21,272 nt of DNA from a virus. The stretch spans positions 1-21,272 of the IMG/VR virus record IMGVR_UViG_3300031951_001413; one strand, given 5' to 3'. A model generated the notes under the pieces. It ran no database searches. It saw nothing but the letters and a program-made list of their open reading frames with translations, and was not told the DNA's origin. A program made the translations under genes and the position numbers. Shown here one piece after another: positions 3,130-20,604 of the stretch. Every line of letters starts with the position of its first letter. Position 1 is the stretch's first letter.

Positions 3130-3132
3130 TTA

Positions 3133-3885
3133 TTATCTTTTCTCAAAATACCAATGTGCTTCGTGGTTCTTTGCTAAGAACTCTCCAACATAGCCAAAAG
3201 ATTCTAAGTAAGATATGGTATCTTCAGGCGTTGTATTATAATCACGGATACCCAGATCATCATGAATAGATACAAATATTTTTAAATTATTATCTTGTAA
3301 TGTTTTTTCCGCACCCTTAAATACAAGAAGTTCTGCACCTTCTACGTCGATGTTTAGAACATCTGGAACAATACCAACCTCAGAAACATAATCATCTACC
3401 TTAATCATTGGTATGCTTTCTGTATTGTCATGAATATATACATACTTATTTCTATCAATAATTGGTCCAAGATACTTTTCTCCCCAAGCATTTAAGTCAC
3501 TGCCTTTTCGGGTATCTGTTGTTTTATCACCCATTAATCCAGAGTAACATGCCATAGGGTCTACAGAATAGTTTTTATACCATAGTGCATGTATGTTTGC
3601 CCAGAACTCTGGCGTTGGCTCAATTAGTACCATGTTTTCTGGTCCAACAATGTCAGCATAAACTAAATTACACCATCCAGCCTCTGTTCCAATATCAAAA
3701 AATACATCACCCTTTTTTAGATGAGACTTCATGCTGTAGATTCTTTCGCTCTCCCAATAATCCCATACATCCCAATTTGCTAATGGCTCATTAAGTTTTA
3801 ATCTGTAGTCATAGTTCTTTGTTTGCCCTTGACGCAAGTATGGAACTGTTTTCCATATAATGTCTGATCTTTCAATAAAATTCAT
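3133..3885 (-). CDS. FkbM-family SAM-dependent methyltransferase
   Basis: 250 residues with the full FkbM pattern: SAM-binding motif I FFDIGTEAGW (62-71), motif II VLIEPTPE (86-93) and the diagnostic LNIDVEGAELLVFKGA (177-192), then SIHDD where the family normally has an E/D-rich strand. FkbM enzymes O-methylate hydroxyls, often of sugars. In this operon of glycosyltransferases the likely job is capping or decorating the glycan made by its neighbours. Start overlaps the upstream gene as ATGA (3882-3885). Family call is firm; substrate is inferred. Confidence 0.88.
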   Translation of the reverse strand: MNFIERSDIIWKTVPYLRQGQTKNYDYRLKLNEPLANWDVWDYWESERIYSMKSHLKKGDVFFDIGTEAGWCNLVYADIVGPENMVLIEPTPEFWANIHALWYKNYSVDPMACYSGLMGDKTTDTRKGSDLNAWGEKYLGPIIDRNKYVYIHDNTESIPMIKVDDYVSEVGIVPDVLNIDVEGAELLVFKGAEKTLQDNNLKIFVSIHDDLGIRDYNTTPEDTISYLESFGYVGEFLAKNHEAHWYFEKR

Positions 3886-4838
3886 AGCCCTAACTCCTTC
3901 ATGATAGTTGCCCAGCGATGGACATATGTATGTTCTTTCTTTGTTCTTTCATGCCCAGCAATCCTTATGTTTTCTCTTGAAAGACCATCCAGAAGATACT
4001 TGTCTATCTTAGTTTTTAAATCTTCAAGGTTGCCATGTTCATAAAATACAATTTCATTTCCATCTTCAAAATATTCCTCAAGCCCCTTAATGCGAGGGTA
4101 GATAGTAAAGCCGCCACGACCAGTACTTTCAAATAGTCTATCGCTAGTATAGTAAGGGTAGTTAAAATTAATGTTAAGACTATCTCCTACGGCTATTCTG
4201 CTTTGTGCATATATCTGGTTCAATGCGTCTCCACGAACTGTTCCAGTATCACCATCTCCACCAACATGAAGAAACTTTTTTCCATATGTTTTTCTTAAAA
4301 AATCTATTAACTGTGGACGATACTTATGCTCAGGGTGATATCCCTTGCTGCCAACAAATATAATATCGTATTTAAAATCGTAAGGGTTGTAATCTTTATG
4401 CATATAACATTCTTTATCGTATACACCTGCAGGTAAGAAGTGACCTTTTACCTCTGTATTTTCATTAAACCAATCACACATTAGTTTATCTGTAGCAAAG
4501 AAATGACCTATGTTTGTGTAAAAGTCGTCATTCTTTAAATCTTTTTCACGTTCAATGCCAAACCACAAATCTAGATGATATGTCATGGTTGGTATACCAG
4601 CAGCCTTTAATTCTTTTAGTACGTCTGTCATAGACTTTGATCCTGGAGTTTGCCACCTATGTGTATGAACCCAGACAAATACATCCGACTTTAATGAATG
4701 GTCTAGTACCTGCTCACTTGTGGCTTTCTTTTCTTGCAACTTTGTGACGGTATGTCCAAGCGACTCAAGACTATTTACATGATGATTTTCACTACTATAA
4801 GGCACTTCAAAGTTACCTAAAAACACTATATTAGCCAA
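3882..4838 (-). CDS. glycosyltransferase, CgeB / Glyco_trans_1_2-like
   Basis: 318 residues, first gene of the leftward glycan operon. C-terminal GT-B domain is visible: YDIIFVGSKGYHPEHKYRP (157-174), then TSDRLFESTGRGGFTIYPRIKGLEEYFEDG (231-260), the pattern of CgeB-like proteins in which the E of SDRLFE binds the donor. I chose the TTG at 4838 because AGGTGGG lies 6 bases upstream and the protein then starts MANIVFLGNF; a GTG nine bases earlier (4847) has no ribosome site. It shares a short divergent promoter region with the rightward transferase at 4910. Sugar and acceptor unknown. Confidence 0.72.
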   Translation of the reverse strand: MANIVFLGNFEVPYSSENHHVNSLESLGHTVTKLQEKKATSEQVLDHSLKSDVFVWVHTHRWQTPGSKSMTDVLKELKAAGIPTMTYHLDLWFGIEREKDLKNDDFYTNIGHFFATDKLMCDWFNENTEVKGHFLPAGVYDKECYMHKDYNPYDFKYDIIFVGSKGYHPEHKYRPQLIDFLRKTYGKKFLHVGGDGDTGTVRGDALNQIYAQSRIAVGDSLNINFNYPYYTSDRLFESTGRGGFTIYPRIKGLEEYFEDGNEIVFYEHGNLEDLKTKIDKYLLDGLSRENIRIAGHERTKKEHTYVHRWATIMKELGL

Positions 4839-4909
4839 GGATCCCACCTATTCTATATTTATACCAGTATACCAGATTCTGATATACTTGTTATAAAGGT
4901 AGGGACATA
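4839..4909. promoter_or_regulatory. divergent promoter region of the glycan cassette
   Basis: 71-base AT-rich gap between divergent glycan genes. It contains two direct copies of TATACCAG (about 4861-4876) and -10-like boxes on both strands: TATACT at 4883-4888 (+), and TATACT plus TATAAA on the minus strand about 20-30 bases before the TTG start. No good -35 is visible on either strand. Both ribosome sites (AGGTGGG on minus, AGGTAGGGA on plus) are clear. Confidence 0.45.
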
Positions 4910-12142: not shown

Positions 12143-12316
12143 TTAAATCATACCCTCTGCCACTGACAAAAGGTGGCGGGTATTATAAATCTCAGCCTCT
12201 TTAGTCCTATAGAAATGATGTTCATTAACATAGTCAATCTTCTCAAGGTCTTGTAAAAGACTTATCTCATGAATCTTCATATACTCAATGAAACTATTCA
12301 ACTGATTCATCTTCAT
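12143..12316 (-). CDS. hypothetical 57-residue protein
   Basis: MKMNQLNSFIEYMKIHEISL... helical, no family recognised. Two in-frame ATGs (12316 and 12310) have equally spaced GAGG sites, so the start is uncertain by two codons; the longer reading to 12343 runs deep into the upstream gene. Stop lies 2 bases before the next start. Confidence 0.65.
   Translation of the reverse strand: MKMNQLNSFIEYMKIHEISLLQDLEKIDYVNEHHFYRTKEAEIYNTRHLLSVAEGMI
12147..12168 (-). promoter_or_regulatory. TGTCAG-N10-TATGAT promoter (leaderless)
   Basis: TGTCAG at 12163-12168 (minus) and TATGAT at 12147-12152, 10 bases between; ATG 12140 follows after 6 bases. It lies in the 3' end of the 57-residue gene. Confidence 0.65.
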
Positions 12317-12479
12317 CCTCTTCTTCAGGTTCAGGTTGCTCATCTATCTCAATAGAATAAACCTCAGCGGTGTATCCGTAGTCTTCGTAGTGCCAGCCTT
12401 GTTCTTCTGCCTCTTGGTCGTTGTCTGCTTCTACTTCGTAATTGTATTCAACGATTACTTTTACATCATATGTTGGCAT
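12294..12479 (-). CDS. hypothetical 61-residue acidic protein
   Basis: MPTYDVKVIVEYNYEVEADN... beta-strand N-terminus then a strongly acidic tail (EQPEPEEEDEDESVE). Small proteins with a YEVEADNEEEA-like segment are common in phages, function unknown. Ribosome site AAAGGAAA; strong promoter upstream. First gene of a leftward unit. Confidence 0.75.
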   Translation of the reverse strand: MPTYDVKVIVEYNYEVEADNDQEAEEQGWHYEDYGYTAEVYSIEIDEQPEPEEEDEDESVE

Positions 12480-12511
12480 TTTGGGATTTCCTTTCTATGG
12501 TCGTAATAACA

Positions 12512-12540
12512 ATTATAGGGTTTGGGGATTATAATTGCAA
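12512..12540 (-). promoter_or_regulatory. promoter TTGCAA-N17-TATAAT
   Basis: -35 TTGCAA (12535-12540) and perfect -10 TATAAT (12512-12517) on the minus strand, 17-base spacer. An 8-bp inverted repeat (CAATTATA / TATAATTG) spans the spacer and -10 and could be an operator. A CRP-like palindrome lies upstream at 12562-12577. Confidence 0.82.
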
Positions 12541-12561
12541 GGTCGTAATAGGGTTTTGGGG

Positions 12562-12577
12562 TGTGACCTTCATCACG
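12562..12577. promoter_or_regulatory. CRP/GlxR-like palindrome, TGTGA-N6-TCACG
   Basis: One mismatch from TGTGA-N6-TCACA. Its centre is 55 bp upstream of the -10 centre of the promoter at 12512. It overlaps the last bases of the upstream gene. Confidence 0.5.
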
Positions 12578-12848
12578 TTTGGCTACATCCACAGTCGCAA
12601 CAATAATTACACACGGTGAGATAATGATCACAGTGCTCTGACTCTTTATCTAATACCTCATTGCAACGGGAGCACAGGAAAGTCTCAGACTCCCCTAACT
12701 CTTCGTAACTAATATAGTTTAACTTCCTACCACATGGGCACATCATCTCGACAACTCCCAGGGGAAAGCCAAATCCATCCCTGGCAGTAAACTCAACAAG
12801 AGCGTCACACTCTTCGGGATCACATGTAAAAGTATACTTACCCCACAT
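12573..12848 (-). CDS. 91-residue cysteine-rich zinc-ribbon protein
   Basis: MWGKYTFTCDPEECDALVEF... twelve cysteines: C9, C14, C37, C39, C59, C62, C73, C80, C83, C84, C86 and C88. The C59-x2-C62 pair with later cysteines and H72/H75 look like zinc knuckles; three metal sites are possible. Starts in TAATG overlap with the upstream stop. Role unknown. Confidence 0.75.
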   Translation of the reverse strand: MWGKYTFTCDPEECDALVEFTARDGFGFPLGVVEMMCPCGRKLNYISYEELGESETFLCSRCNEVLDKESEHCDHYLTVCNYCCDCGCSQT

Positions 12849-13006
12849 TAGTCAAAGTACCCCTCTGCCCACAAACCTTCAAGGAATTCTTGAGTCTTCG
12901 ATAGGCTCCCGTGTAACCAAGGGTCATCGTCAGGATTCACGGTAGTTATGGCAGAAGCCACGGCATCAGTCATATTATCTAAATCTTCCTTAGTATAGCC
13001 TAACAT
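12848..13006 (-). CDS. hypothetical 52-residue protein
   Basis: MLGYTKEDLDNMTDAVASAI... helical, ends with LEGLWAEGYFD. The ATG at 13006 has GGGGAGA five bases upstream and overlaps the upstream stop as TAATG, so the longer reading from 13057 is rejected. Coupled on both sides. Confidence 0.72.
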   Translation of the reverse strand: MLGYTKEDLDNMTDAVASAITTVNPDDDPWLHGSLSKTQEFLEGLWAEGYFD

Positions 13007-13167
13007 TATTCTCCCCAATACTTGACAATGGTGTTCATGGTAATATGTAAGTGGCAATCACATGGGTCTCCCCCCATGTTTTCCTCAAATTCAAAGTGCG
13101 ATAGGTTGTCCTCATAAATCTCATTTACGAGTTCTGATATTGTGTATGGTTTGTATGTTGTGGTCAT
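13006..13167 (-). CDS. hypothetical 53-residue protein with C/H cluster, leaderless
   Basis: MTTTYKPYTISELVNEIYED... then GGDPCDCHLHITMNTIVKYWGE. The compact C-D-C-H-L-H cluster (34-39) may bind metal. Similar small proteins with DPCDCHLHI occur in actinophages. Overlaps the upstream stop as ATGA and the next start as TAATG. A TGTCAG-type promoter gives a leaderless start (TATGAT, 6 bases, ATG), so it may also be transcribed independently. Confidence 0.75.
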   Translation of the reverse strand: MTTTYKPYTISELVNEIYEDNLSHFEFEENMGGDPCDCHLHITMNTIVKYWGE

Positions 13168-13589
13168 GATAATATCATATCGCTAGGCACTGACATCTTA
13201 GATTGCCATAGGGAACAGTTTCTATCTAATCTATCACCAAAGACACGGATGTAGTCTGCGATATCCTCTGTTTGTTCTGTTAGACATTCTTTAACAGTAT
13301 CTACAGAGATAAACACTCTACCATTCCATAGACCCATTTGACCAATGTTAGTTGGTACTTCTAGACATCCATAAGTGTCCTGCTCCCAGCCTACTCCTTC
13401 TGAGCAAACCAAGGCATACTTATTGTCGCCAAATACATTCTTTTCTTCAAGGGTAACAAATAACAAATTATCTACTGTACATTCACTAAAGTCATTGCTA
13501 TACTGTAGACGATAGATATCATTTGCTATTGTTGCTAACTTCTTACCGTCAACTATTTGACCAATATATCCTTTTGATCTTTCACTCAT
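13164..13589 (-). CDS. hypothetical 141-residue protein
   Basis: MSERSKGYIGQIVDGKKLAT... mixed alpha/beta protein, no family recognised; note VGWEQDTYGCLEVPTNIGQMG in the middle. I chose ATG 13589, preceded by AAAGGAAACACC; upstream in-frame codons run into the promoter. First gene of the leftward unit that continues with the small overlapping genes. Confidence 0.78.
   Translation of the reverse strand: MSERSKGYIGQIVDGKKLATIANDIYRLQYSNDFSECTVDNLLFVTLEEKNVFGDNKYALVCSEGVGWEQDTYGCLEVPTNIGQMGLWNGRVFISVDTVKECLTEQTEDIADYIRVFGDRLDRNCSLWQSKMSVPSDMILS
13174..13195 (-). promoter_or_regulatory. TGTCAG-N10-TATGAT promoter (leaderless)
   Basis: TGTCAG at 13190-13195 and TATGAT at 13174-13179 on the minus strand, inside the 3' end of the 141-residue gene; ATG 13167 follows the -10 by 6 bases. 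Confidence 0.65.
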
Positions 13590-13620
13590 GGTGTTTCCTT
13601 TGGTTAGTAGGTATATATTA

Positions 13621-13649
13621 ATTTTACCCGAAAATGGGAAATAAATCAA
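13621..13649 (-). promoter_or_regulatory. promoter TTGATT-N17-TAAAAT, spacer with TTTCCCA
   Basis: -35 TTGATT (13644-13649) and -10 TAAAAT (13621-13626), 17-base spacer. The spacer contains TTTCCCATTTTC, closely similar to the promoter at 18231-18259 (TTTCCCAATTTC). Drives the 141-residue gene. In the same gap, GCAATGC and GCATTGC arms (about 13662 and 13702) form a weak hairpin. Confidence 0.8.
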
Positions 13650-13707
13650 GTCTCCGTAATGCAATGCTAATAAAATAAACAAAAATCCGGCACCGCTTTT
13701 TGCATTG

Positions 13708-13780
13708 CGCCCCGTACGAGATTTGAACTCGTGATCTTCACAGTGACAGTGTGATGATTTAACCGCTAATCTAACGGAGC
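13708..13780 (-). tRNA. tRNA-Asp (anticodon GTC)
   Basis: 73-nt cloverleaf: acceptor GCTCCGT/ACGGGGC with discriminator G (the aspartate identity base G73), anticodon stem TCACA/TGTGA with loop CTGTCAC (GTC), T arm ACGAG-TTCAAAT-CTCGT. No encoded CCA. Lies alone between the DUF932 unit and the next promoter, 46 bases from the DUF932 stop, and may be part of that transcript. Confidence 0.94.
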
Positions 13781-13783
13781 GTG

Positions 13784-13810
13784 TGAGCAGTTTTGATTCT
13801 TGCTCAGGAA
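13784..13810 (-). terminator. 3'-end hairpin family copy 1 (TGAGCA...TGCTCA)
   Basis: 6-bp stem TGAGCA (13784-13789) / TGCTCA (13801-13806), flanked by CCTGAGCA on the transcript side; 15 bases after the DUF932 stop and directly before tRNA-Asp. One of five copies in the window. Confidence 0.6.
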
Positions 13811-13825
13811 TTTTCTTTCGTTTGC

Positions 13826-14848
13826 TTATGCTAATTGCATAACATTTTGCACAACTTTTAGCAGACGATTTTTTTCTGCGTTGATAGCAGGGTCAAATCC
13901 GCTTGCGCTTGCAAGGATAGATTCGTTAGAACCACCACGAGCAGAACGATACCAGTCAAGACGCTCAGTAAGTGCATTGAACGCACCCCACGCATTACCA
14001 GCAATCATTCCATTGAATTCACCAGTGTAAATATCGTTGATAACATCAACTTTATTTTCCCACTTCTTCATTGAACCCTTAGAATCTTTTTCTGGCTTAG
14101 CATATGCAGCAAGAATGATGTCATTGAAATCCTTAGCAGAAACTTCTTTTTCAATCATAGCCTTAGCCATAACATCAAATTCGTCCATATAAGCATTAGC
14201 AAGACCAAGAGTTTCACGAGCAATCTGCACTTTACCATTTGCAGTTTGTGTGTGGCGAATCTTGAAAGATTGCTTGATACCCTTGTTCTTCTTGCGACCT
14301 ACGCCACCAAGAGCAAGGTTAAGAGTATTAGCGCACACAACACGAACAGGTGTTATGCTTGCTTGAATAGCGATTGAGCCATCGTGTGATGTGTTGATAA
14401 GTAAATAAGTCTTTACCTTATCTGCAACACCGCTAGGGTCTAGGATTGTTTCACGCTCTAGTGCTAATGCACCGAATACAACACGCCCACCCTTGATTGA
14501 GCCAGCAGTTTCCCAACGACCTCCGCCGTCTAGGATATTATCACCGAATGAGAATAAATCTTCATTCTGCAATACGTGATAACGCTCACCAACAACACCA
14601 AGAATATCAGTCTGGGTGTTATCAGTAGGATTAGTACGCAAGACATATTGGTAAGCCTTGTCGCTTGTTAGGTGTGCGGGTGTTTGCATATCTTCAAGGC
14701 GAACATTCCACCCATTAAGATTTGCAGCCTCTAGCATTTCTGCGGTTGTTTTTTCTTCGGTAAATACAGTACCCAATCCGTGCCAAGCAGGTTCTCTGAA
14801 TGAGGCGAATGAGGTTTTACCATTTTGTGTTTCTAAGTCGTGAGCCAC
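13826..14848 (-). CDS. DUF932 phage/plasmid-like protein
   Basis: 340 residues, starting at a GTG (14848) preceded by AGAAGGAAA. Typical DUF932 (TIGR03299) start MAHDLETQNGKTSFASFREP followed by AWHGLGTVF, then GVVGERYHVLQNEDLFSFGD, and INTSHDGSIAIQASITPVRVVCANTLNLAL, all family hallmarks. It is common in actinophages and plasmids; its role is unknown, with suggestions of DNA-related activity only. Expressed from a TGTCAG-type promoter with an upstream CRP-like site. Its size is normal for the family. Confidence 0.92.
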   Translation of the reverse strand: MAHDLETQNGKTSFASFREPAWHGLGTVFTEEKTTAEMLEAANLNGWNVRLEDMQTPAHLTSDKAYQYVLRTNPTDNTQTDILGVVGERYHVLQNEDLFSFGDNILDGGGRWETAGSIKGGRVVFGALALERETILDPSGVADKVKTYLLINTSHDGSIAIQASITPVRVVCANTLNLALGGVGRKKNKGIKQSFKIRHTQTANGKVQIARETLGLANAYMDEFDVMAKAMIEKEVSAKDFNDIILAAYAKPEKDSKGSMKKWENKVDVINDIYTGEFNGMIAGNAWGAFNALTERLDWYRSARGGSNESILASASGFDPAINAEKNRLLKVVQNVMQLA

Positions 14849-14878
14849 GATTTCCTTCTTTCTTTTGTTGTTAATCTA

Positions 14879-14900
14879 ATCATACACCTAGCCACCGACA
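14879..14900 (-). promoter_or_regulatory. TGTCGG-N10-TATGAT promoter of DUF932
   Basis: TGTCGG (one base from TGTCAG) at 14895-14900 and TATGAT at 14879-14884, minus strand. A TTGCAT lies 17 bases upstream of the -10 as a possible -35. The DUF932 leader is about 30 bases with AAGGAAA. Confidence 0.65.
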
Positions 14901-14948
14901 AATGCAAATCAGGATAGTTAAATAGGGGTAAATCGGACATTTTGGGAA

Positions 14949-14964
14949 TGTGGGGAATCTCACA
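14949..14964. promoter_or_regulatory. CRP/GlxR-like palindrome, TGTGG-N6-TCACA
   Basis: One mismatch from the TGTGA-N6-TCACA consensus; centre 75 bp upstream of the DUF932 -10 centre. Confidence 0.55.
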
Positions 14965-15008
14965 TAATCGTAACTTGACAAACCAGGCTGGGCGTGCCGG
15001 AATTTACA

Positions 15009-15121
15009 AGTGGTAGTGTGCCCTGTTGCTTATAGATCATCCTTCTGATGAACTCCAGGTATTCTTATTCTTACGAGATAAGCACCCACTTACTCAACAC
15101 ACTACCACTCTAATAAGTGGG
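15009..15121 (-). ncRNA. structured RNA element with interlocked helices
   Basis: On the minus strand a 12-bp perfect helix AGTGGTAGTGTG / CACACTACCACT pairs 15098-15109 with 15009-15020. An inner 7-bp helix (TGCTTAT/ATAAGCA: 15078-15084 with 15027-15033) and a 5-bp hairpin (15037-15051, loop 15042-15046) nest inside. A second 8-bp helix CCCACTTA / TAAGTGGG pairs 15114-15121 with 15085-15092 and crosses the 12-bp helix, so the two form a pseudoknot or exclude each other. It lies in the 3' region of the 159-residue gene. No known RNA family recognised. Confidence 0.55.
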
Positions 15122-15129
15122 AATATTGG

Positions 15130-15158
15130 TGAGCCGTTTACATGGACACTGCTCAGGT
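15130..15158 (-). terminator. 3'-end hairpin family copy 5
   Basis: TGAGC (15130-15134) / GCTCA (15151-15155) with ACCTGAGCA on the transcript side; 26 bases after the stop at 15185, just before the structured RNA element. Confidence 0.5.
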
Positions 15159-15163
15159 CCCTT

Positions 15164-15183
15164 TTTCATAGCCCCCTATGAAA
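15164..15183 (-). terminator. 8-bp hairpin right after a stop codon
   Basis: TTTCATAG / CTATGAAA with a 4-base loop, 1-2 bases after the stop of the 159-residue gene. No T-run after it on the minus strand; likely a transcript-end or decay-blocking structure. Confidence 0.5.
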
Positions 15184-15184
15184 C

Positions 15185-15664
15185 TTAGTAGTGCTCCTCA
15201 AGAGATACTTCGTCAACACAAAAGTCTGCATCATAGTCATATGAATTTAAATCAACATCGACTGAAACATTACTTAAGTCAAAGTCTTCTGCTTCTGCAA
15301 TTGGTACACGCACTGTTCCTGTAAATGTTACAGTTCCTTGTACTTCAATTTCCTTGGTAGGATTAATACCAAAGTATTCACAGATTCCAGCAAGAACCTC
15401 ATCCTTTTCATAGTTAGGATTAGTCCATTCAATAACTTGCTCATCTAGTCCATTGATAAGATTCTCTAACTTATCAAGTCTCTTAGTATTATTGCGTGAT
15501 ACGTGTAGGTCCCATTCAATATCGGTAACCTTGCTTGTTAAGAATGTAGGCACTTCAGGTGCAGCATATGTATCTGGAATTGCCTTATAAGTAACCAGTA
15601 AGTGCGGGTTGTATGCGACGGTTAACTTATCTTCTGTTACCGCTTCAAGTATATTAGTTGACAT
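15185..15664 (-). CDS. hypothetical 159-residue acidic protein
   Basis: MSTNILEAVTEDKLTVAYNP... The middle segment (VSRNNTKRLDKLENLINGLD) is helical; the end has beta strands (TVTFTGTVRVPIAEAEDF) followed by a very acidic tail. Proteins of this kind are frequent in actinophages, function unknown. Starts 5 bases after the end of the 87-residue gene and is co-transcribed with it. Confidence 0.8.
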   Translation of the reverse strand: MSTNILEAVTEDKLTVAYNPHLLVTYKAIPDTYAAPEVPTFLTSKVTDIEWDLHVSRNNTKRLDKLENLINGLDEQVIEWTNPNYEKDEVLAGICEYFGINPTKEIEVQGTVTFTGTVRVPIAEAEDFDLSNVSVDVDLNSYDYDADFCVDEVSLEEHY

Positions 15665-15669
15665 AGGGG

Positions 15670-15933
15670 TTATTCCATTTCTTGTTCTAGTTGGTCGAAT
15701 TCTTTAATGGTATCTACCATATCGTTCATCTGACTTTCTGTCAAACAAACTGATGTAACCAATGTAGCAGTTAGGGCTGACAAACTGGCTGAGTATTTAA
15801 ATAAGAACTGAACAAACTCTTCGTCTGTCATTTCGTTTCTTGCGTGGTATAAATGTCCAGCCATATCCATAATCATATTATCGTGAACGGCTGAGGCAGT
15901 TGCATCTTGGATTGCTATCGCTGTTGCTATCAT
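15670..15933 (-). CDS. hypothetical 87-residue protein
   Basis: MIATAIAIQDATASAVHDNM... alpha-helical, with a mildly hydrophobic centre (FKYSASLSALTATLVTSVCL). Strong ribosome site GAAGGAG. First gene of a two-gene unit driven by a TGTCAG promoter and a perfect CRP-like site. No family recognised. Confidence 0.78.
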   Translation of the reverse strand: MIATAIAIQDATASAVHDNMIMDMAGHLYHARNEMTDEEFVQFLFKYSASLSALTATLVTSVCLTESQMNDMVDTIKEFDQLEQEME

Positions 15934-15962
15934 AGGGGTCTCCTTCTTTGTGGTTTAATATA

Positions 15963-15984
15963 AGTATACATATGAGGACTGACA
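15963..15984 (-). promoter_or_regulatory. TGTCAG-N10-TATACT promoter
   Basis: TGTCAG at 15979-15984 and TATACT at 15963-15968 on the minus strand, upstream of the 87-residue gene. Confidence 0.72.
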
Positions 15985-16022
15985 AGTACAAATGGGAATC
16001 GTAACTATCTCATATAATGAGA

Positions 16023-16038
16023 TGTGATGTTGATCACA
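16023..16038. promoter_or_regulatory. perfect CRP/GlxR-like palindrome TGTGA-N6-TCACA
   Basis: TGTGATGTTGATCACA, perfect at all ten consensus positions; centre 65 bp upstream of the -10 centre at 15963-15968. Confidence 0.68.
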
Positions 16039-16056
16039 CGAGCCCGGCAAAATTTT

Positions 16057-16081
16057 TGAGCCTTTTTCCATCATGCTCAGG
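16057..16081 (-). terminator. 3'-end hairpin family copy 2
   Basis: TGAGC (16057-16061) / GCTCA (16075-16079), CCTGAGCA on the transcript side, 82 bases after the stop of the 56-residue gene. The 124 bases between 16039 and 16162 hold no gene; a CACCT/AGGTG hairpin (about 16097-16115) is also present. Confidence 0.5.
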
Positions 16082-16162
16082 ATGTATGGGTTCTTGCACC
16101 TGCCCAATAAGGTGGCTCTATAGTATTTCTATTATCGCCCTAATCAGCCTGGCGAATTCTTT

Positions 16163-16333
16163 TTACTTAGATGTTTTTACCATAGCAAATCGGTGTGCGC
16201 CATTTGCTAACTGTAATGAAACTCTAGTAAGTTTAGAATTGATAGGTGTAAAGTTGCTAATACGACCTGTAATTCCTGTTTTGCTTGTTGTGAATAAATC
16301 ACCAATTTGGTAAGTGTATCCGCCTAGTGTCAT
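16163..16333 (-). CDS. 56-residue small protein, paralogue of the gene at 16977
   Basis: MTLGGYTYQIGDLFTTSKTG ITGRI... then VSLQLANGAHRFAMVKTSK. The pattern YxxGDxxTTxKxxxxGxIxxx...VxLxxxGxxRx aligns with the 54-residue protein encoded at 16977-17141, so the two are paralogues. Strand-rich and SH3-barrel-like in appearance, with no assigned role. AAAGG lies upstream of the ATG. It is probably co-transcribed with the 141-residue gene. Confidence 0.72.
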   Translation of the reverse strand: MTLGGYTYQIGDLFTTSKTGITGRISNFTPINSKLTRVSLQLANGAHRFAMVKTSK

Positions 16334-16371
16334 TTTGGGTCTTGCCTTTCTGTTGTGGTGTTTAGAGTTGG

Positions 16372-16400
16372 TGAGCAGTTTTAGTAGTCATACTCAGGAC
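16372..16400 (-). terminator. 3'-end hairpin family copy 3 (covarying)
   Basis: TGAGCA (16372-16377) / TACTCA (16391-16396): the stem keeps 6 pairs with a G-U instead of G-C relative to copies 1 and 4. It is 16 bases after the stop of the 141-residue gene at 16417. Confidence 0.55.
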
Positions 16401-16416
16401 TTTTCCTTAGTAGGAA

Positions 16417-16842
16417 TTATAGGTAGCGTGCTACCGCATTATATGTAGAAGTATTTACAACTTCCTCATCTGTCATCTTTAGGATACGAATTGCATTTGC
16501 AATTTCCTCTTTCTGACTTTGATATTCGTGAGTGTGTAGCACTACGAAATCACGATTTGGTTCTACTGGCATATCGCTTTCTTTTGCTACGATAATATCG
16601 TAGTCAATGTTTAGCGTGTTGTTGTATGAACGATATGAAGTGCGGAAGTTGGTTGCCTTCTTGATGTTAGCAATAGCGTATTCTTGAACTTCTTTACGCC
16701 ACTTCTCTCTTGCCTTCTCATACTTTGCTTCATTGGCTTCTTGTGAAGTCCAATCAAGTTCTAGTTTATTTAGTGCCTGTTCTAGTGCCTTGATTACCTT
16801 TGGTGTTGCGATTTTTACTGAGATTGCTTTTCCTCTTGACAT
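16417..16842 (-). CDS. hypothetical 141-residue protein
   Basis: MSRGKAISVKIATPKVIKAL... helical, strongly charged, with a long KLELDWTSQEANEAKYEKAREKW coiled-coil-like part (about 27-50), then an FVVLHTHEYQSQKEEIANAI segment and a C-terminal helix. Strong ribosome site AAAAGGAAA. Own TGTCAG promoter. No family recognised; similar proteins appear in actinophages. Confidence 0.8.
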   Translation of the reverse strand: MSRGKAISVKIATPKVIKALEQALNKLELDWTSQEANEAKYEKAREKWRKEVQEYAIANIKKATNFRTSYRSYNNTLNIDYDIIVAKESDMPVEPNRDFVVLHTHEYQSQKEEIANAIRILKMTDEEVVNTSTYNAVARYL

Positions 16843-16872
16843 TGGTTTCCTTTTCTTTGGTGGTTAGTTTCT

Positions 16873-16894
16873 ATTGTAGGGGGTGGGTCTGACA
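16873..16894 (-). promoter_or_regulatory. TGTCAG-N10-TACAAT promoter
   Basis: TGTCAG at 16889-16894 and TACAAT at 16873-16878 (minus). A CCCCC-GAA-GGGGG hairpin sits immediately upstream; no CRP-like site is present here. Confidence 0.65.
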
Positions 16895-16909
16895 TTTCCC
16901 CCGAAGGGG

Positions 16910-16948
16910 GGAGAGTTCTTACTTACGACATTGGGCTAGATACTCTCC
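16910..16948 (-). terminator. hairpin GGAGAGT / ACTCTCC after the 54-residue gene
   Basis: 7-bp perfect stem with a 25-base loop, about 29 bases after the stop at 16977. It probably ends the upstream transcript; no T-run. Confidence 0.4.
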
Positions 16949-16976
16949 TAAACTGCCCCTGTTTCGTTATTTTATT

Positions 16977-17141
16977 TTACTTGGCTGTCCAAGTTGTGTA
17001 TCGGGTCTTTCCCTCTACATCTAGCGCAACACGGACATTTCCGTTAGCCTGTGGAATAATCTCCTTGATTACTCCTGTGACTTTGGACTTCTGTGTTGTG
17101 TAGGTATCTCCTACTTTGTAAGTTGCGGTTGCTACTGACAT
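16977..17141 (-). CDS. 54-residue small protein, paralogue of the gene at 16163
   Basis: MSVATATYKVGDTYTTQKSK VTGVI... NVRVALDVEGKTRYTTWTAK. Shares YxxGDxxTTxKxxxxGxI and a C-terminal VxLxxxGxxRx strand with the 56-residue protein. Ribosome site AAAGGAAA; own TGTCAG promoter and a perfect CRP-like site upstream. Role unknown. Confidence 0.75.
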   Translation of the reverse strand: MSVATATYKVGDTYTTQKSKVTGVIKEIIPQANGNVRVALDVEGKTRYTTWTAK

Positions 17142-17171
17142 TGTATTTCCTTTCGTTAGGTTGATATTATT

Positions 17172-17193
17172 ATTTTACTACTACCTACTGACA
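17172..17193 (-). promoter_or_regulatory. TGTCAG-N10-TAAAAT promoter
   Basis: TGTCAG at 17188-17193 and TAAAAT at 17172-17177 (minus). TTGCAT lies 18 bases upstream of the -10 as a possible -35. Confidence 0.68.
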
Positions 17194-17242
17194 AAATGCA
17201 AGTCGGAAGGGTAAAAATCTCACTATTTGATACATTTTTGAT

Positions 17243-17258
17243 TGTGATATAAATCACA
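17243..17258. promoter_or_regulatory. perfect CRP/GlxR-like palindrome TGTGA-N6-TCACA
   Basis: TGTGATATAAATCACA; centre 76 bp upstream of the -10 centre at 17172-17177. Beside it lie the repeats TGTCCGATA and TGTCCAGA (17259-17280, minus). Confidence 0.68.
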
Positions 17259-17282
17259 TCTGGACATATCGGACATTACGGA

Positions 17283-17345
17283 CTATTGGGTAAGAAACAT
17301 TAGAAATAGCCATAGCAGAATATATAAGATTATACTGTTATCCAT
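17283..17345 (-). CDS. possible 20-residue hydrophobic peptide
   Basis: MDNSIILYILLWLFLMFLTQ, one membrane helix, starting 10 bases after the GP88 stop. Ribosome site weak (GTGAG), so this is uncertain; it is reported because other membrane microproteins (26, 31, 33 and 50 residues) occur in the window. Confidence 0.3.
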   Translation of the reverse strand: MDNSIILYILLWLFLMFLTQ

Positions 17346-17355
17346 TGTTGGTATC

Positions 17356-18078
17356 TCACTTTTTAGTTGCGGAAAAAACTATGTCTGCCTTCGAGTATAC
17401 ACACAATCCGCAAGAAACGCAAGCCGAGCCTTTCTGTGAGATAAGTGGAATAGACTTATTATTCTCAGGGCACTTAGCACCAGGCTTATTGAATAACTCT
17501 TTCATATCCCCTTGACCGATAGCAAAATTTTTGGCAAGGTATGCAAGTCTAATACCATGATTACTCTTTAGGTCAACGCCTACACTCTTATTCTCGCTAT
17601 CTGTAGAATAATATAAAGATAGATTAGGAATGTCTTTTAGGATAAGCGCTGCAGACTTAACTCTAGTGTATACCCAGAATTGAATATCAGGTTGCTCTTC
17701 GATTACTGAACGCCATGCTTGTGCGTACTCATCGTTAAAGAAATCGCCATCCCAGTGAATGCGAAATAGCATAGGGGCATTGCGTCTAACACAATCTGTT
17801 TTAAACTCTGCAATCATTTCTGAAATTAGTGTGTACATCTCAACACGATCAGCATTACGTAGTAATTCCCAGTTATGCAATAAGTTTTTCTTTACTGTTG
17901 GGAATACCTTTTCCAATTTGCCTGCATAGCAAACACTCTCGCAGACACTCGTAGCGCCAGGACATGAATAGTTTTTTCCTGCAGGTAATCCGAATGTATT
18001 TGCGATACTTGCTTGTTTTCCATTTGGGGTGACGGCATTTGCTACTTTCCTATCTTTGCTTCTAAGTAATTTTGACAT
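17356..18078 (-). CDS. GP88-family protein (mycobacteriophage gene product 88 type)
   Basis: 240 residues. Starts MSKLLRSKDRKVANAVTPNG; has NYSCPGATSVCESVCYAGK (cysteines 39, 46 and 50), FRIHWDGDFFNDEYAQAW (105-122), FWVYTR (134-139) and a C-terminal CVSCGLC (220-226). This set is diagnostic of the GP88 family, found in many actinophages with no known function. Seven cysteines in two clusters plus C203 suggest an iron-sulphur or zinc centre, and the FxIHxxGDF...YTR pattern recalls a TIM-barrel enzyme; both are inference. Own TGTCAG promoter inside the upstream gene. Confidence 0.9.
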   Translation of the reverse strand: MSKLLRSKDRKVANAVTPNGKQASIANTFGLPAGKNYSCPGATSVCESVCYAGKLEKVFPTVKKNLLHNWELLRNADRVEMYTLISEMIAEFKTDCVRRNAPMLFRIHWDGDFFNDEYAQAWRSVIEEQPDIQFWVYTRVKSAALILKDIPNLSLYYSTDSENKSVGVDLKSNHGIRLAYLAKNFAIGQGDMKELFNKPGAKCPENNKSIPLISQKGSACVSCGLCVYSKADIVFSATKK

Positions 18079-18084
18079 GGTGGA

Positions 18085-18225
18085 TTACTCACTTTCTTTC
18101 TTTAATTCTAGCATTAGGGACTGACATTTCTTGCGGTTGTATTTCTTTTTATTAGGGACCGATGAGGCAGCATTGCTACGGCGTAATTCCATAAGCCTGC
18201 GTAATTCCTCTGGTGTTTTTTTCAT
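18085..18225 (-). CDS. 46-residue basic protein, leaderless
   Basis: MKKTPEELRRLMELRRSNAA... NKKKYNRKKCQSLMLELKK. Basic helical protein with an LRRSNAA motif seen in several small actinophage proteins. Ends 6 bases before the GP88 start. A near-consensus promoter (TTGATA-N17-TAAGAT) ends 5 bases before its ATG, and no ribosome site is visible, so it is predicted leaderless. Confidence 0.72.
   Translation of the reverse strand: MKKTPEELRRLMELRRSNAASSVPNKKKYNRKKCQSLMLELKKESE
18105..18126 (-). promoter_or_regulatory. TGTCAG-N10-TAGAAT promoter of GP88
   Basis: TGTCAG at 18121-18126 and TAGAAT at 18105-18110 (minus), inside the 3' part of the 46-residue gene, about 27 bases before the GP88 ATG. 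No CRP-like site upstream. Confidence 0.6.
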
Positions 18226-18230
18226 ACTTA

Positions 18231-18259
18231 ATCTTAGCAGAAATTGGGAAAAATATCAA
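18231..18259 (-). promoter_or_regulatory. promoter TTGATA-N17-TAAGAT, spacer with TTTCCCA
   Basis: -35 TTGATA (18254-18259) and -10 TAAGAT (18231-18236), 17-base spacer containing TTTCCCAATTTC. Near copy of the promoter at 13621-13649. ATG 18225 follows after 5 bases. Confidence 0.8.
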
Positions 18260-18326
18260 CTCCCCATAATCAGGAGGTTCTGGACAAAACGGACACGCCG
18301 GGGTTTTTATGCAGTGTTATGAATTT

Positions 18327-18569
18327 TTATTCATCATCATCTATAAAGACATACAACTTAAACATATCTTCATAGGTGCAAAGAGTTTCTTCTACTTCAT
18401 CATATTCATTCTTATGAGTAATTGTATAGTTATCTCCAGTAGCGTCATCAACTACTGAAATAACTTCCACAATATCATTATCAATATTGATCAAGTCACC
18501 TTCCATTAACTGGCTAGGTGTAAGTAAGTCTGCATACACAAATTTCATATTTGTTATTGTAGCAGTCAT
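18327..18569 (-). CDS. hypothetical 80-residue acidic protein
   Basis: MTATITNMKFVYADLLTPSQ LMEGDLI... beta-strand pattern (GDLINIDNDIVEVISVVDD) resembling a small beta barrel, ending in an acidic LYVFIDDDE. Ribosome site GAGGAATA. Follows the 94-residue gene by one base. A hairpin ATGAAT/ATTCAT spans its stop codon. Function unknown. Confidence 0.78.
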   Translation of the reverse strand: MTATITNMKFVYADLLTPSQLMEGDLINIDNDIVEVISVVDDATGDNYTITHKNEYDEVEETLCTYEDMFKLYVFIDDDE

Positions 18570-18570
18570 T

Positions 18571-18855
18571 TTAGTATTCCTCTTCAGGTAGCCAGAATGA
18601 TAAGTGGTGCTGGTCTACGATAGCCCTTGCAGGTGCTTGCGTTGAGCCACGATATAAAATCTGAAAGTCACCAACTTTTGGCATATCAATCATTCGGTCA
18701 TAGTCCTCATCATAGTAAGCGTCAATAGCCTCAATGCAAGGTTGTACCATTTCTGCGGGTACTGGAGGATAGTGATTACCCTTCAAGTGATAGAGAATCT
18801 GAGTCTCCAAGTCTAATACTGTATCTTGAATTCCTAGTGCGGTTACTGAACCCAT
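18571..18855 (-). CDS. hypothetical 94-residue protein
   Basis: MGSVTALGIQDTVLDLETQI... with conserved-looking HLKGNHYPPVP (23-33), a segment typical of small actinophage proteins of unknown role, and an end with QHHLSFWLPEEEY. Separated from neighbours by one base on each side, so it is part of a four-gene unit. Confidence 0.78.
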   Translation of the reverse strand: MGSVTALGIQDTVLDLETQILYHLKGNHYPPVPAEMVQPCIEAIDAYYDEDYDRMIDMPKVGDFQILYRGSTQAPARAIVDQHHLSFWLPEEEY

Positions 18856-18856
18856 A

Positions 18857-19066
18857 TTATTTTACACTCACATTTCCGTTGCGGTAGAAGGTCTTAGTAT
18901 ACATTTTGCCAGTAGGGTCTGACAAGTTATAGGTTGCGTATTCTTTAGCGTCGCCAAAGTCTACACATTTAGTCCAAGCGTTTACTGCCTCTAGCATATC
19001 GCTAACACGCAGGGTATTTACAAGTTCTCCATCATATGAAGTAGTAAGTGAGTAGTTATATTCCAT
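18857..19066 (-). CDS. hypothetical 69-residue protein
   Basis: MEYNYSLTTSYDGELVNTLR... beta-rich small protein ending KTFYRNGNVSVK. Starts as TAATG overlap with the zinc-ribbon gene. Family not recognised, although an RVSDMLEAVNAWTKCVDFGDA-like helix is typical of small phage proteins. Confidence 0.75.
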   Translation of the reverse strand: MEYNYSLTTSYDGELVNTLRVSDMLEAVNAWTKCVDFGDAKEYATYNLSDPTGKMYTKTFYRNGNVSVK

Positions 19067-19260
19067 TATGCGTTCTCCTTAGCATATTCGTTCATTTCAT
19101 TTTCAGCATACCATACGGCATACTCATTAGCAAATCCCTGCCCTTTTTCACAATCAGCGCAGAAATCATTTATAAATCCATCGCTATCCATATCAGTAAA
19201 GATAACGCCCTCATCATAGCAAGTGTAGCAAGTTCCTATTTTATCAAATAAGTTTCCCAT
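19066..19260 (-). CDS. 64-residue zinc-ribbon protein
   Basis: MGNLFDKIGTCYTCYDEGVI... ligands C11-x2-C14 and C34-x2-C37, then an acidic helix. Strong ribosome site AAAGGAAAA. First gene of the four-gene unit, driven by a TGTCAG promoter with an upstream CRP-like site. Role unknown. Confidence 0.78.
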   Translation of the reverse strand: MGNLFDKIGTCYTCYDEGVIFTDMDSDGFINDFCADCEKGQGFANEYAVWYAENEMNEYAKENA

Positions 19261-19287
19261 TAGTTTTCCTTTCGTCTTGATAAATCA

Positions 19288-19309
19288 AGCCTATCAGACT
19301 GGACTGACA
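19288..19309 (-). promoter_or_regulatory. TGTCAG-N10-TAGGCT promoter
   Basis: TGTCAG at 19304-19309 and TAGGCT at 19288-19293 (minus). The -10 match is modest (TAnnnT only). Confidence 0.58.
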
Positions 19310-19337
19310 TTTTCCAGTTCATAAGGTCATTTCGGGG

Positions 19338-19353
19338 TGTGTTTAATATCACA
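19338..19353. promoter_or_regulatory. CRP/GlxR-like palindrome, TGTGT-N6-TCACA
   Basis: One mismatch; centre 55 bp upstream of the -10 centre at 19288-19293. A DnaA box (TGTGGATAA, 19364-19372) lies next to it. Confidence 0.52.
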
Positions 19354-19398
19354 CGTAAAGGTCTGTGGATAACCTGTGGACGACACGCCGGAAATTTT

Positions 19399-19425
19399 TG
19401 AGCAGTTTTAAATCTTGCTCAGGAT
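19399..19425 (-). terminator. 3'-end hairpin family copy 4
   Basis: 6-bp stem TGAGCA (19399-19404) / TGCTCA (19416-19421); CCTGAGCA on the transcript side; 8 bases after the stop of the 50-residue gene. On the other strand it is followed by six T, so it could work in both directions. Confidence 0.6.
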
Positions 19426-19432
19426 TTTTTAT

Positions 19433-19585
19433 TTATTTTTTTAGTCGTTCACTTCTCAACGCAATTTGCAATCTGCGAATTTCTTTTTGTTGTGCAATAT
19501 TTTGTTTCCAAAACATACCCATTACAAAAAGAGATCCAGCAAGTGCAATTGTTATTCCGATTAGTGTTCCAGTATCTAGAATCAT
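19433..19585 (-). CDS. 50-residue single-helix membrane protein
   Basis: MILDTGTLIGITIALAGSLF VMGMF then WKQNIAQQKEIRRLQIALRS. One membrane helix (about 7-25) followed by a basic, amphipathic, possibly coiled-coil tail. Overlaps the upstream gene as ATGA. Shape resembles small holin/spanin-like or membrane-anchor proteins; no family recognised. Confidence 0.72.
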   Translation of the reverse strand: MILDTGTLIGITIALAGSLFVMGMFWKQNIAQQKEIRRLQIALRSERLKK

Positions 19586-19752
19586 TTCATGCACGCCTCT
19601 CTGAATTTATCAAATTTAAAATTTGGATTATCCTCTGCAAAGAATGAAGAAAAATCTTCTACCAAATCTTCAAATAAAAATTCATCACCTATTAAATCTT
19701 TATAAGATGAAAGAATTTCTGCAACGGCTACATAGTCTTTGCGTGTCATCAT
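19582..19752 (-). CDS. hypothetical 56-residue acidic protein
   Basis: MMTRKDYVAVAEILSSYKDL... NPNFKFDKFREACMK. A MTRKDYxxxAxxL start, central acidic helix and NPxFxxxxFxxAC end is a recurrent actinophage/plasmid small-protein pattern of unknown role. Two adjacent ATGs (19752 and 19749) leave the start ambiguous by one codon. Coupled to the 50-residue gene by ATGA. Confidence 0.75.
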   Translation of the reverse strand: MMTRKDYVAVAEILSSYKDLIGDEFLFEDLVEDFSSFFAEDNPNFKFDKFREACMK

Positions 19753-19959
19753 TTATTTTGCCACCTTTAGCGTTGCATAAGAATTGCCCTCGTTGAGTTC
19801 ATCAAGTGTTGGTTGAATCATAGGTGCAAGTAATTCTTTTAGCATACCTTCAAGCATTTGCACTTGTTCAATTTCTGAAAGTGTTAGCAGGCGTTGTGCT
19901 ACTGGGTGAGTTTCGTCTAGTTCGGTGACGAATTGTAGTGAGTGATAGATTTTTTTCAT
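19753..19959 (-). CDS. hypothetical 68-residue helical protein
   Basis: MKKIYHSLQFVTELDETHPV... LTLSEIEQVQMLEGMLKELL..., mostly helical. ATG 19959 overlaps the upstream stop (TAATG); the longer reading to 20010 is rejected. No family recognised. Confidence 0.75.
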   Translation of the reverse strand: MKKIYHSLQFVTELDETHPVAQRLLTLSEIEQVQMLEGMLKELLAPMIQPTLDELNEGNSYATLKVAK

Positions 19960-20141
19960 TATAGTGTAGCCTTTCCACGAAGTGTGCCAGTAATTCCAAG
20001 AGTATCGCAAGCGATTTTTACGGATACGCCAACGGGTAATTGTGTTGGGTATGTTGATATGAATTGAGCAACCGCACCTTTTGAGGGCAGGCTGATAGTT
20101 TTTACTGAACCATTAAAGGTTTCTAGTTTTACATTATACAT
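19959..20141 (-). CDS. hypothetical 60-residue protein
   Basis: MYNVKLETFNGSVKTISLPS KGAVAQFIS... strands plus one helix, with glycine turns; no family recognised. Ribosome site AAAGGAAAA is 11 bases from the ATG. Coupled to the next gene by TAATG. Confidence 0.75.
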   Translation of the reverse strand: MYNVKLETFNGSVKTISLPSKGAVAQFISTYPTQLPVGVSVKIACDTLGITGTLRGKATL

Positions 20142-20158
20142 ATTTCAGTTTTCCTTTC

Positions 20159-20377
20159 TTAGTTATTTTCAGTTTTTACGGCTACAGTTCGGTAAGTTCT
20201 GCGACCAAAATTATTGTAGCCACTATTAGGTGCAACCTCTACAAGATAAGTTTCGCAACCTTCATACCAAATACCTTTAGGGTGAATTTCTGCAGATACG
20301 ATTTCACCTTGCAAGGTGCGTGAGTAGTAGTTTTTTCCTACAAGTAGGTTTTCTATTGAATAGACATTTGCGGACAT
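20159..20377 (-). CDS. hypothetical 72-residue protein
   Basis: MSANVYSIENLLVGKNYYSR... beta-rich; no family recognised. Strong ribosome site AAAGGAGAA. First gene of the five-gene unit (20377 to 19433) driven by tandem promoters and two CRP-like sites. Confidence 0.77.
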   Translation of the reverse strand: MSANVYSIENLLVGKNYYSRTLQGEIVSAEIHPKGIWYEGCETYLVEVAPNSGYNNFGRRTYRTVAVKTENN

Positions 20378-20418
20378 TGAGTTCTCCTTTCAAGAGACTT
20401 TCATTTTCTTACATAGTA

Positions 20419-20440
20419 AGTCTAGCAGTTTTGGCTGACA
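20419..20440 (-). promoter_or_regulatory. TGTCAG-N10-TAGACT promoter
   Basis: TGTCAG at 20435-20440 and TAGACT at 20419-20424 (minus). TTGATA lies 17 bases upstream of the -10 as a -35. Confidence 0.7.
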
Positions 20441-20478
20441 TTATCAAATTGAAAATCGGACATATCAGACAAATTGAA

Positions 20479-20494
20479 TGTGAATTACATCACA
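20479..20494. promoter_or_regulatory. perfect CRP/GlxR-like palindrome TGTGA-N6-TCACA
   Basis: TGTGAATTACATCACA; centre 65 bp upstream of the -10 centre at 20419-20424, and just downstream of the second promoter's start. Confidence 0.66.
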
Positions 20495-20527
20495 TCGTTT
20501 TTGCTATTTATTTAATTGTATAAGAGA

Positions 20528-20556
20528 ATACTACCAGATAAATCTCAAAAAGTCAA
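20528..20556 (-). promoter_or_regulatory. second promoter TTGACT-N17-TAGTAT
   Basis: -35 TTGACT (20551-20556) and -10 TAGTAT (20528-20533), 17-base spacer, tandem with the TGTCAG promoter about 110 bases closer to the genes. Confidence 0.72.
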
Positions 20557-20588
20557 GACGACACGCCGTAATTCTGGAAATTATTTTA

Positions 20589-20604
20589 TGTGATCTTAAC
20601 CACA
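20589..20604. promoter_or_regulatory. CRP/GlxR-like palindrome, TGTGA-N6-CCACA
   Basis: One mismatch; centre 66 bp upstream of the second promoter's -10 centre, repeating the 65-bp offset seen at the inner promoter. The rest of 20495-20658 holds no gene; it carries GACACGCC motifs at 20560 and 20606. Confidence 0.55.

Follow-up and report, generated by a model that had tools for sequence, protein, structure and literature searches.

Palindromes and promoters of the window

The window studied here comprises all 21,272 bases of a stretch of the viral record IMGVR_UViG_3300031951_001413 (G+C 0.38, three tRNA genes), and the element in question is the palindrome TGTGA-N6-TCACA, which recurs in it upstream of minus-strand promoters. 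Pfam assigned two of the window's genes, one to DUF932 (13826-14848) and one to GP88 (17356-18078). We infer, from evidence given below, that the window belongs to a freshwater virus of actinobacteria. A DNA-level search of the phage collection in 'near' mode returned no match to it, and the best match of its DUF932 protein among phage records was Streptomyces phage Riptide (53% identity). IMG/VR is rich in close relatives, which match DUF932 and GP88. We picked relatives by homology to these two proteins, both encoded within the block of genes discussed below, taking for DUF932 the best 80 among 450 matches and for GP88 the best 80 among 597. The 160 loci were reduced to 89 non-redundant ones after removal of overlaps (1,372,442 bases in total). 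These relatives are close kin and not independent samples, which the counting by gene family in the phasing test below corrects in part.

An original prediction, made from the letters of the window, had proposed that seven such palindromes are bound by a host activator responsive to cyclic AMP (cAMP). All seven lie where it had placed them, those at 16023, 17243 and 20479 being perfect and the other four having one mismatch, but its count was incomplete and missed two one-mismatch palindromes, at 11707 and 12617, both within open reading frames (ORFs). The window holds 3 perfect and 6 one-mismatch sites, where first-order simulation (60 runs) gives 0.017 and 0.83 (maximum 3), the former in agreement with the 0.02 or so predicted. 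When up to two mismatches are allowed, the 12 palindromes found are at chance level (11.5 in shuffles of the window); hence, the signal is carried by the sites with none or one mismatch only.

Five of the promoters facing these sites were identified with a model of 25 columns, re-estimated, that was learned from the relatives without use of the palindromes. Among 830 gene-strand occurrences of [AT]TGTCAG in the relatives, TTGTCA is followed by TANNNT at 11 bp in 657, at 17 bp in 175 and at 6 bp in 90, and 413 of the 657 have an extended TGn at the -10. The columns where a -35 hexamer would stand show no conservation beyond A-rich positions. This defines a class of box promoters, AaWTGTCAG-N10-TANNNT, in which a TGTCAG box is separated by 10 bp from the -10, occupying roughly -29 to -23 when the -10 hexamer is taken as -12 to -7, and in which there is no conserved -35. 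Most of the promoters that face palindromes are of this class, a feature absent from the original prediction. The model makes 798 calls on the gene strand of the relatives versus 40 on the opposite strand. A second, smaller class has the form TTGTAA-N17-TATAAT. A single model for all sites, TTGTCA-N17-TATAAT with TTGTCA as the -35, had yielded different distances for the five box promoters of the window that have palindromes; it was rejected for box promoters, given the spacing counts above (657 at 11 bp, 175 at 17 bp), and continues to suit the smaller TTGTAA class.

With a score above 9, the box model makes 11 minus-strand calls in the window, some of them within ORFs, and one plus-strand call. 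The minus-strand box promoters span 12147-20443, and 5 of the 11 have one of the seven palindromes 55-76 bp upstream. The predicted distances of 55, 55, 65, 65, 66, 75 and 76 bp were all reproduced, five of them through this palindrome-blind model. The features are as follows, distances being from palindrome centre to -10 centre.

20589..20604, minus strand: Crp-like palindrome, one mismatch, 66 bp from the -10 centre at 20530.5
20528..20556, minus strand: sigma-A-type promoter TTGACT-N17-TAGTAT, facing the 20589 palindrome
20479..20494, minus strand: Crp-like palindrome, perfect, 65 bp from the -10 centre at 20421.5
20419..20443, minus strand: box promoter TAATGTCAG...TGCTAGACT, upstream of ORF 20159-20377, score 22.4
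19338..19353, minus strand: Crp-like palindrome, one mismatch, 55 bp from the -10 centre at 19290.5
19288..19312, minus strand: box promoter AAATGTCAG...TGATAGGCT, upstream of ORF 19066-19260, score 26.1
18105..18129, minus strand: box promoter without palindrome, at the 3' end of ORF 18085-18225 and upstream of GP88 (17356-18078), score 31.1
17243..17258, minus strand: Crp-like palindrome, perfect, 76 bp from the -10 centre at 17174.5
17172..17196, minus strand: box promoter TTTTGTCAG...TAGTAAAAT, upstream of ORF 16977-17141, score 16.1
16873..16897, minus strand: box promoter without palindrome, upstream of ORF 16417-16842, score 26.9
16023..16038, minus strand: Crp-like palindrome, perfect, 65 bp from the -10 centre at 15965.5
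15963..15987, minus strand: box promoter ACTTGTCAG...ATGTATACT, upstream of ORF 15670-15933, score 18.0
14949..14964, minus strand: Crp-like palindrome, one mismatch, 75 bp from the -10 centre at 14881.5
14879..14903, minus strand: box promoter ATTTGTCGG...GTGTATGAT, upstream of the DUF932 gene (13826-14848), score 20.8
12617..12632, minus strand: extra palindrome, one mismatch, in ORF 12573-12848, 110 bp from the -10 centre at 12514.5, of doubtful role
12562..12577, minus strand: Crp-like palindrome, one mismatch, 55 bp from the -10 centre at 12514.5
12512..12540, minus strand: sigma-A-type promoter TTGCAA-N17-TATAAT, upstream of ORF 12294-12479
11707: extra palindrome, one mismatch, in an ORF

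Neither a phage sigma factor nor relatives of MotA or AsiA were among the Pfam matches listed for 87 of the 107 ORFs (at least 95 aa) of one genome, an incomplete scan that did not show the known WhiB either and for part of which 25 of 30 families were listed.

Enrichment, phasing and conservation in related phages

In the relatives, TGTGA-N6-TCACA is by far the commonest of all 5-base inverted repeats, with 440 perfect copies as against 69 for the runner-up at N6 spacing; at other spacings (0 to 14) the TGTGA inverted repeat has at most 7 copies each. All 89 loci carry a perfect site, with a median of 5 per locus, and the six inner bases show a preference for a central TA (T 0.52, A 0.47). 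PMC4254451 gives TGTGANNTANNTCACA as the consensus site of GlxR and describes this protein as mostly an activator. The identity of the phage palindrome with the GlxR consensus, already part of the original prediction, holds for this form of it, central TA included.

We considered the distances of the 223 perfect sites that have a box promoter within 110 bp. As many as 169 of them fall on peaks at 44-45 bp (3 sites), 55-56 bp (55), 64-67 bp (46) and 74-76 bp (65). One-mismatch sites, which were not used to find these peaks, show their own at 55, 65 and 75-76 bp. For the remaining 217 of the 440 perfect sites no box promoter stands that close, and many of these face TTGTAA-type promoters; sites before TTGTAA-N17-TATAAT stand at 44 bp in 22 of 23 cases in gene cluster 6, in 20 of 21 in cluster 7 and in all 14 in cluster 10. 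Periodicity was tested on the 66 unique pairs of gene family and distance that fall in the range 40-85 bp. The period that fits them best is 10.2 bp (R 0.64), a value that 5000 sets with a jitter of at most 5 bp never attained. The test was limited to that range, outside which lie 25 sites at 87-106 bp, and sites to which no gene could be assigned were pooled as one family. The distances for one gene shift among relatives mostly by whole turns. In cluster 0, where 40 of the 70 members have a box promoter within 110 bp, they are 55 bp (4), 65-66 bp (15) and 74-76 bp (21), with none between; in cluster 3 they are 64 bp (1) and 75-76 bp (11), and in cluster 11, 65 bp (3) and 74 bp (2). Steps of about one helical turn, as predicted from seven sites, are thus a recurrent property of these phages.

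The sites also keep to a given side of the promoter. Around 788 box promoters there are no perfect centres from -40 to +59 and just four one-mismatch centres, at -40 to -31. A site with at most one mismatch occurs 40-100 bp upstream of 349 of the 788 (218 of them perfect); for randomly chosen positions of these loci the figure is 122 of 3560. Such avoidance of the core promoter by perfect sites would be expected of an activator, and the location of the sites, upstream and outside the core promoter, argues for activation. A peak of A+T content lies some 20-28 bp downstream of the palindrome for the 55 and 75 classes, and a weaker one for the 65 class. We do not count this peak as evidence for a site of the C-terminal domain of the polymerase alpha subunit (alpha-CTD), other peaks being equally high.

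Conservation was surveyed gene by gene, using orthologue matches that begin at residue 8 or earlier and are at least 200 bases away from the locus start. A site with at most one mismatch is found upstream of 62 of 76 orthologues of ORF 20159-20377, 61 of 86 of ORF 16977-17141, 63 of 84 of the DUF932 gene, 15 of 18 of ORF 12294-12479 and 7 of 13 of ORF 15670-15933. Hence five of the six palindrome genes keep their site in more than half of the relatives. Eight of eleven comparison genes have it in 0/85, 0/82, 1/88, 2/86, 0/4, 1/20, 1/70 and 1/59 relatives; among them are two genes whose box promoters lack a palindrome in the window, GP88 (1/88) and ORF 16417-16842 (2/86). The other three comparison genes do have sites in relatives (16163-16333, 55/75; 18085-18225, 52/84; 13164-13591, 4/14), which indicates that sites come and go between promoters.

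Longer records place the sites in a single region of the genome. Each of 17 phage records (98-119 kb) has 3-9 perfect sites and no copy of the reversed pattern, the positions of these sites being taken from the matches listed only. Three genomes read whole (109-119 kb) have 10, 10 and 11 box promoters, all on one strand and mostly in one stretch of 7.5-11 kb (9/10, 10/10 and 10/11). Perfect sites lie near this block (68.9-79.5 kb in G005, 95.0-103.6 kb in G009 and 69.0-82.9 kb in G017), and a few one-mismatch sites lie outside it. The strand of the promoters carries the genes of the block, and most of the remaining genome is coded on the other strand. The block is probably an early, host-takeover block, because it has many small genes, lies on the opposite strand to most others and is related to a block at the left end of Riptide.

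Other motifs accompany these promoters. The word AATGTCCG is about 12-fold enriched upstream of box promoters in the relatives, and ATGTCC favours 31, 39-40, 48-50 and 56-57 bp from the -10. A motif that we take to be DnaA-box-like, TTATCCACA, occurs in the window at 9011, 9066 and 9078 (plus strand) and at 19364 (minus strand). The relatives have 477 copies of it in 1.37 Mb, and the reversed word has 15. It stands at most 130 bp upstream of 127 box promoters, 91 of which also have a Crp site with at most one mismatch. The hairpin GAGCA-N11-TGCTC is the next-commonest repeat at any spacing from 0 to 14 (189 copies in the 89 loci); its copies, at 13785-13805 and 19400-19420 in the window, are perhaps terminators between small transcription units. 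Elsewhere in the window, the minus strand of 493-4847 encodes a glycosyltransferase (493-1545) and an FkbM-type methyltransferase (3133-3885), near genes for tRNA-Arg and tRNA-Met. The relative G009 (L268-L273) carries metabolic genes for 2-oxoglutarate (2OG)-Fe(II) oxygenases, a carbamoyltransferase, an APS kinase, Hsp20 and a B12-type ribonucleotide reductase.

The likely host and its Crp

We infer an acI-type (Nanopelagicales-like) actinobacterium as the host. WhiB, which PMC10202952 presents as a mark of actinophages, is encoded in all 17 phage records. In the genome collection the DUF932 protein has three relatives, a close one at 82% identity and two distant ones, at 31% in Dyadobacter and at 25% in an Azonexaceae metagenome-assembled genome (MAG). 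The close one lies on a 4.7-kb contig (L165) of the MAG 'Actinomycetota bacterium isolate WB8_2xO_007', and this contig itself carries a perfect palindrome. Genomes of the order of this isolate measure 1.0-2.2 Mb, which fits Ca. Nanopelagicales. The tRNA pair of the phage matches, via one tRNA at 79-85% identity, all 8 genomes known to belong to that order (E 8.9e-11 or better) and one among 110 other sampled genomes.

None of the 17 phage records encodes a regulator with the cyclic nucleotide monophosphate (cNMP) binding domain PF00027. In the likely host order, this domain is found in 132 of 151 genomes. The match is strong in 130 (E 1.6e-18 or better), and the other two are a fragment at a contig end (G102) and a protein of 618 aa (G153). 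The Crp of the likely host is a close relative of the actinobacterial Crp structures 3d0s and 4byy, which we take to be Rv3676 of Mycobacterium tuberculosis and GlxR, respectively. All 20 crp loci fetched from the order encode the helix GASRETVNKALADFA, identical in the aligned chain of 3d0s, and the cAMP-binding stretch also aligns well with 3d0s. Upstream of these 20 crp genes we found no Crp sites. The cyclases sought in the order were of two kinds: class III adenylate cyclases (PF00211) were found in 0 of 81 genomes and CYTH proteins in 0 of 41, and both searches were positive in Corynebacterium glutamicum.

A putative host activator and its alternatives

In our judgment, the palindromes are quite probably sites of a GlxR/Crp-type regulator of the host, which would activate one block of the phage genome from upstream distances of whole helical turns. 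The regulator would bind the palindromes on one face of the DNA and, at these distances upstream of the core promoter, would recruit the host RNA polymerase in a class I-like manner. The many small transcription units of the block, probably the early host-takeover block, would be activated in this way. Both the binding of host Crp and activation by it are suggested by patterns in the sequence. The host activator of CRP/GlxR type proposed at the outset is favoured by the motif, by the phasing, by the lack of a cNMP regulator in the 17 phage records and by the presence of a GlxR-type Crp in the likely host order.

Several observations weigh against such a host activator. As for phasing, 54 of the 223 perfect sites are off the peaks, at 59-61 bp (25), 69 bp (4), 87-95 bp (23) and 105-106 bp (2). 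In cluster 2 (e.g. loci L010 and L144), 20 of 28 sites are displaced by half a helical turn, at 60-61 bp. In the DUF932 family (cluster 5), 14 of 23 sites stand at 92-93 bp; in several of these sequences a degenerate second palindrome abuts the first, 16 bp closer and thus at about 76 bp, and the family would be in phase only if this degenerate site were the working one. As for association, 439 of the 788 box promoters have no palindrome with at most one mismatch 40-100 bp upstream, and the 19338 palindrome is hardly conserved, orthologues of ORF 19066-19260 having an upstream site in 1 of 13 cases. Conservation of the sites and of their distances in relatives, proposed as a check of the original prediction, came out positive for five of six genes and for the mostly whole-turn shifts, and negative for the 19338 site and for the distances in cluster 2 and, unless the degenerate site is the working one, in the DUF932 family.

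The remaining difficulties concern the host. Its assignment rests on one MAG contig together with a modest tRNA likeness (79-85%), and the MAG that holds this contig, which may be incomplete, has no match to PF00027. Chromosomes of the likely host order have the perfect site at 14 places in 81 genomes, one of which is the phage contig, versus 30 for the reversed pattern, and 69 of the 81 have none. In one genome of the order (1.2 of 1.38 Mb), ranking of inverted repeats and counts at 0-2 mismatches revealed no perfect site, a single non-coding one-mismatch site and no recognisable Crp regulon. In other genomes of the class the pattern often exceeds the reversed control (e.g. 20 to 0, 15 to 0 and 13 to 0), with 23 of 118 having none.

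This rarity of the consensus on chromosomes that do encode a Crp is an argument for the idea that another DNA-binding protein, of host or phage and outside the CRP family, reads TGTGA-N6-TCACA and activates the block. Phage regulators may also exceed the reach of Pfam, and the scan covered ORFs of at least 95 aa. Yet, the match to the GlxR consensus extends to the central TA and the Crp of the likely host order has the recognition helix of the mycobacterial structure, so that we regard such a protein as unlikely, if worth keeping in mind. A slimmer chance goes to operators of a phage immunity or timing repressor, stoperator-like, that would share the CRP consensus by coincidence. Several perfect, symmetric sites across one block are indeed known from some phage immunity systems. 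However, the overlap with core promoters expected of such operators is not seen, with no perfect site from -40 to +59 and four one-mismatch ones at -40 to -31 around the 788 promoters, and helical phasing at 44-76 bp upstream suits activation better. Just as improbable, to our mind, is that the sites are decoys titrating the host Crp, activation being a side effect or absent. Each of the 17 records has 3-9 perfect sites, whereas of 81 genomes in the likely host order 69 have none, and phage sites would exceed those of the host once the phage replicates. Decoys, however, need neither the phasing nor the fixed upstream place that we observe. That the palindromes are chance or compositional and their phasing cherry-picked is next to inconceivable: the count at up to two mismatches in the window does equal shuffles and two one-mismatch sites had been omitted, but the palindrome has 440 copies and its runner-up at N6 has 69, sites are present in 89 of 89 loci, and phasing was tested over 66 pairs of gene family and distance.

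If a GlxR/Crp-type regulator of the host is indeed the activator, its dependence on cAMP in the likely host group is doubtful. The original prediction had called the regulator cAMP-responsive and linked phage expression to host nutritional state; this is not supported, since PF00211 (0/81) and CYTH (0/41) proteins were not found and the consensus is not enriched on the chromosomes. There is a precedent in DdrI, a CRP-family protein that, according to PMC11253593, binds TGTGA-N6-TCACA without cAMP. The Crp of this host may thus be cAMP-independent or tuned to another signal, or the true host may differ. One might speculate, tentatively and with more doubt than belief, that a streamlined freshwater actinobacterium has kept its GlxR-type Crp despite having lost recognisable cyclases and consensus sites, and that its phages use this Crp as an always-on activator of a takeover block with TGTCAG promoters. 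If so, the phages carry more consensus Crp sites than the chromosome of their host.

Each element of this arrangement is of a known kind. GlxR of C. glutamicum has the same site, TGTGANNTANNTCACA, and is mostly an activator (PMC4254451); unlike there, the sites here are on a phage, and searches of the likely host order gave neither PF00211 or CYTH cyclases nor a chromosomal enrichment of the consensus. As in the class I CRP-dependent promoters of E. coli, upstream sites stand at helically phased distances, but most phage core promoters here have no -35. Taking the -10 hexamer as -12 to -7, the phage centres lie near -53.5, -64.5, -74.5 and -85. The E. coli class I optima differ by about 3 bp from all of these but the first, which is not known to have a class I counterpart. 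Phage T1 also ties its gene control to host CRP and metabolic state, cAMP-CRP repressing pir (PMC6737242), whereas positions here argue for activation of several promoters. In T4 middle promoters, as PMC2988021 describes them, a MotA box at -30 replaces the -35 and the -10 is host-type, often TGn-extended. Box promoters share this plan, but their box is TGTCAG instead of TGCTT and its end is 10 bp away from the -10, where the T4 spacing is 12 plus or minus 1 bp; they also differ in having phased Crp sites upstream. Riptide has at its left end a DUF932 relative (53%) in a block of small genes mostly on one strand, as here. We considered it as a source of the same architecture, which was not found in its first 16 kb: these contain no perfect palindrome, one one-mismatch palindrome and two weak box calls. 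What is new is the combination of phased Crp sites with a family of TGTCAG-box promoters in one phage block, and we found no report of phased Crp sites in an actinophage in the open-licence literature, as judged by titles and the openings of abstracts.

Lytic phages are usually thought to begin infection from strong promoters that are independent of regulators. The freshwater phages described here seem instead to place sites for a host regulator, in helical phase, ahead of many of the promoters in one block. Whether infection depends on a single host regulator can therefore be tested directly. The phage sites also provide a readable set for a Crp whose own regulon did not show up in our searches of host chromosomes, and they raise the question of what the Crp of the likely host senses, if not cAMP.

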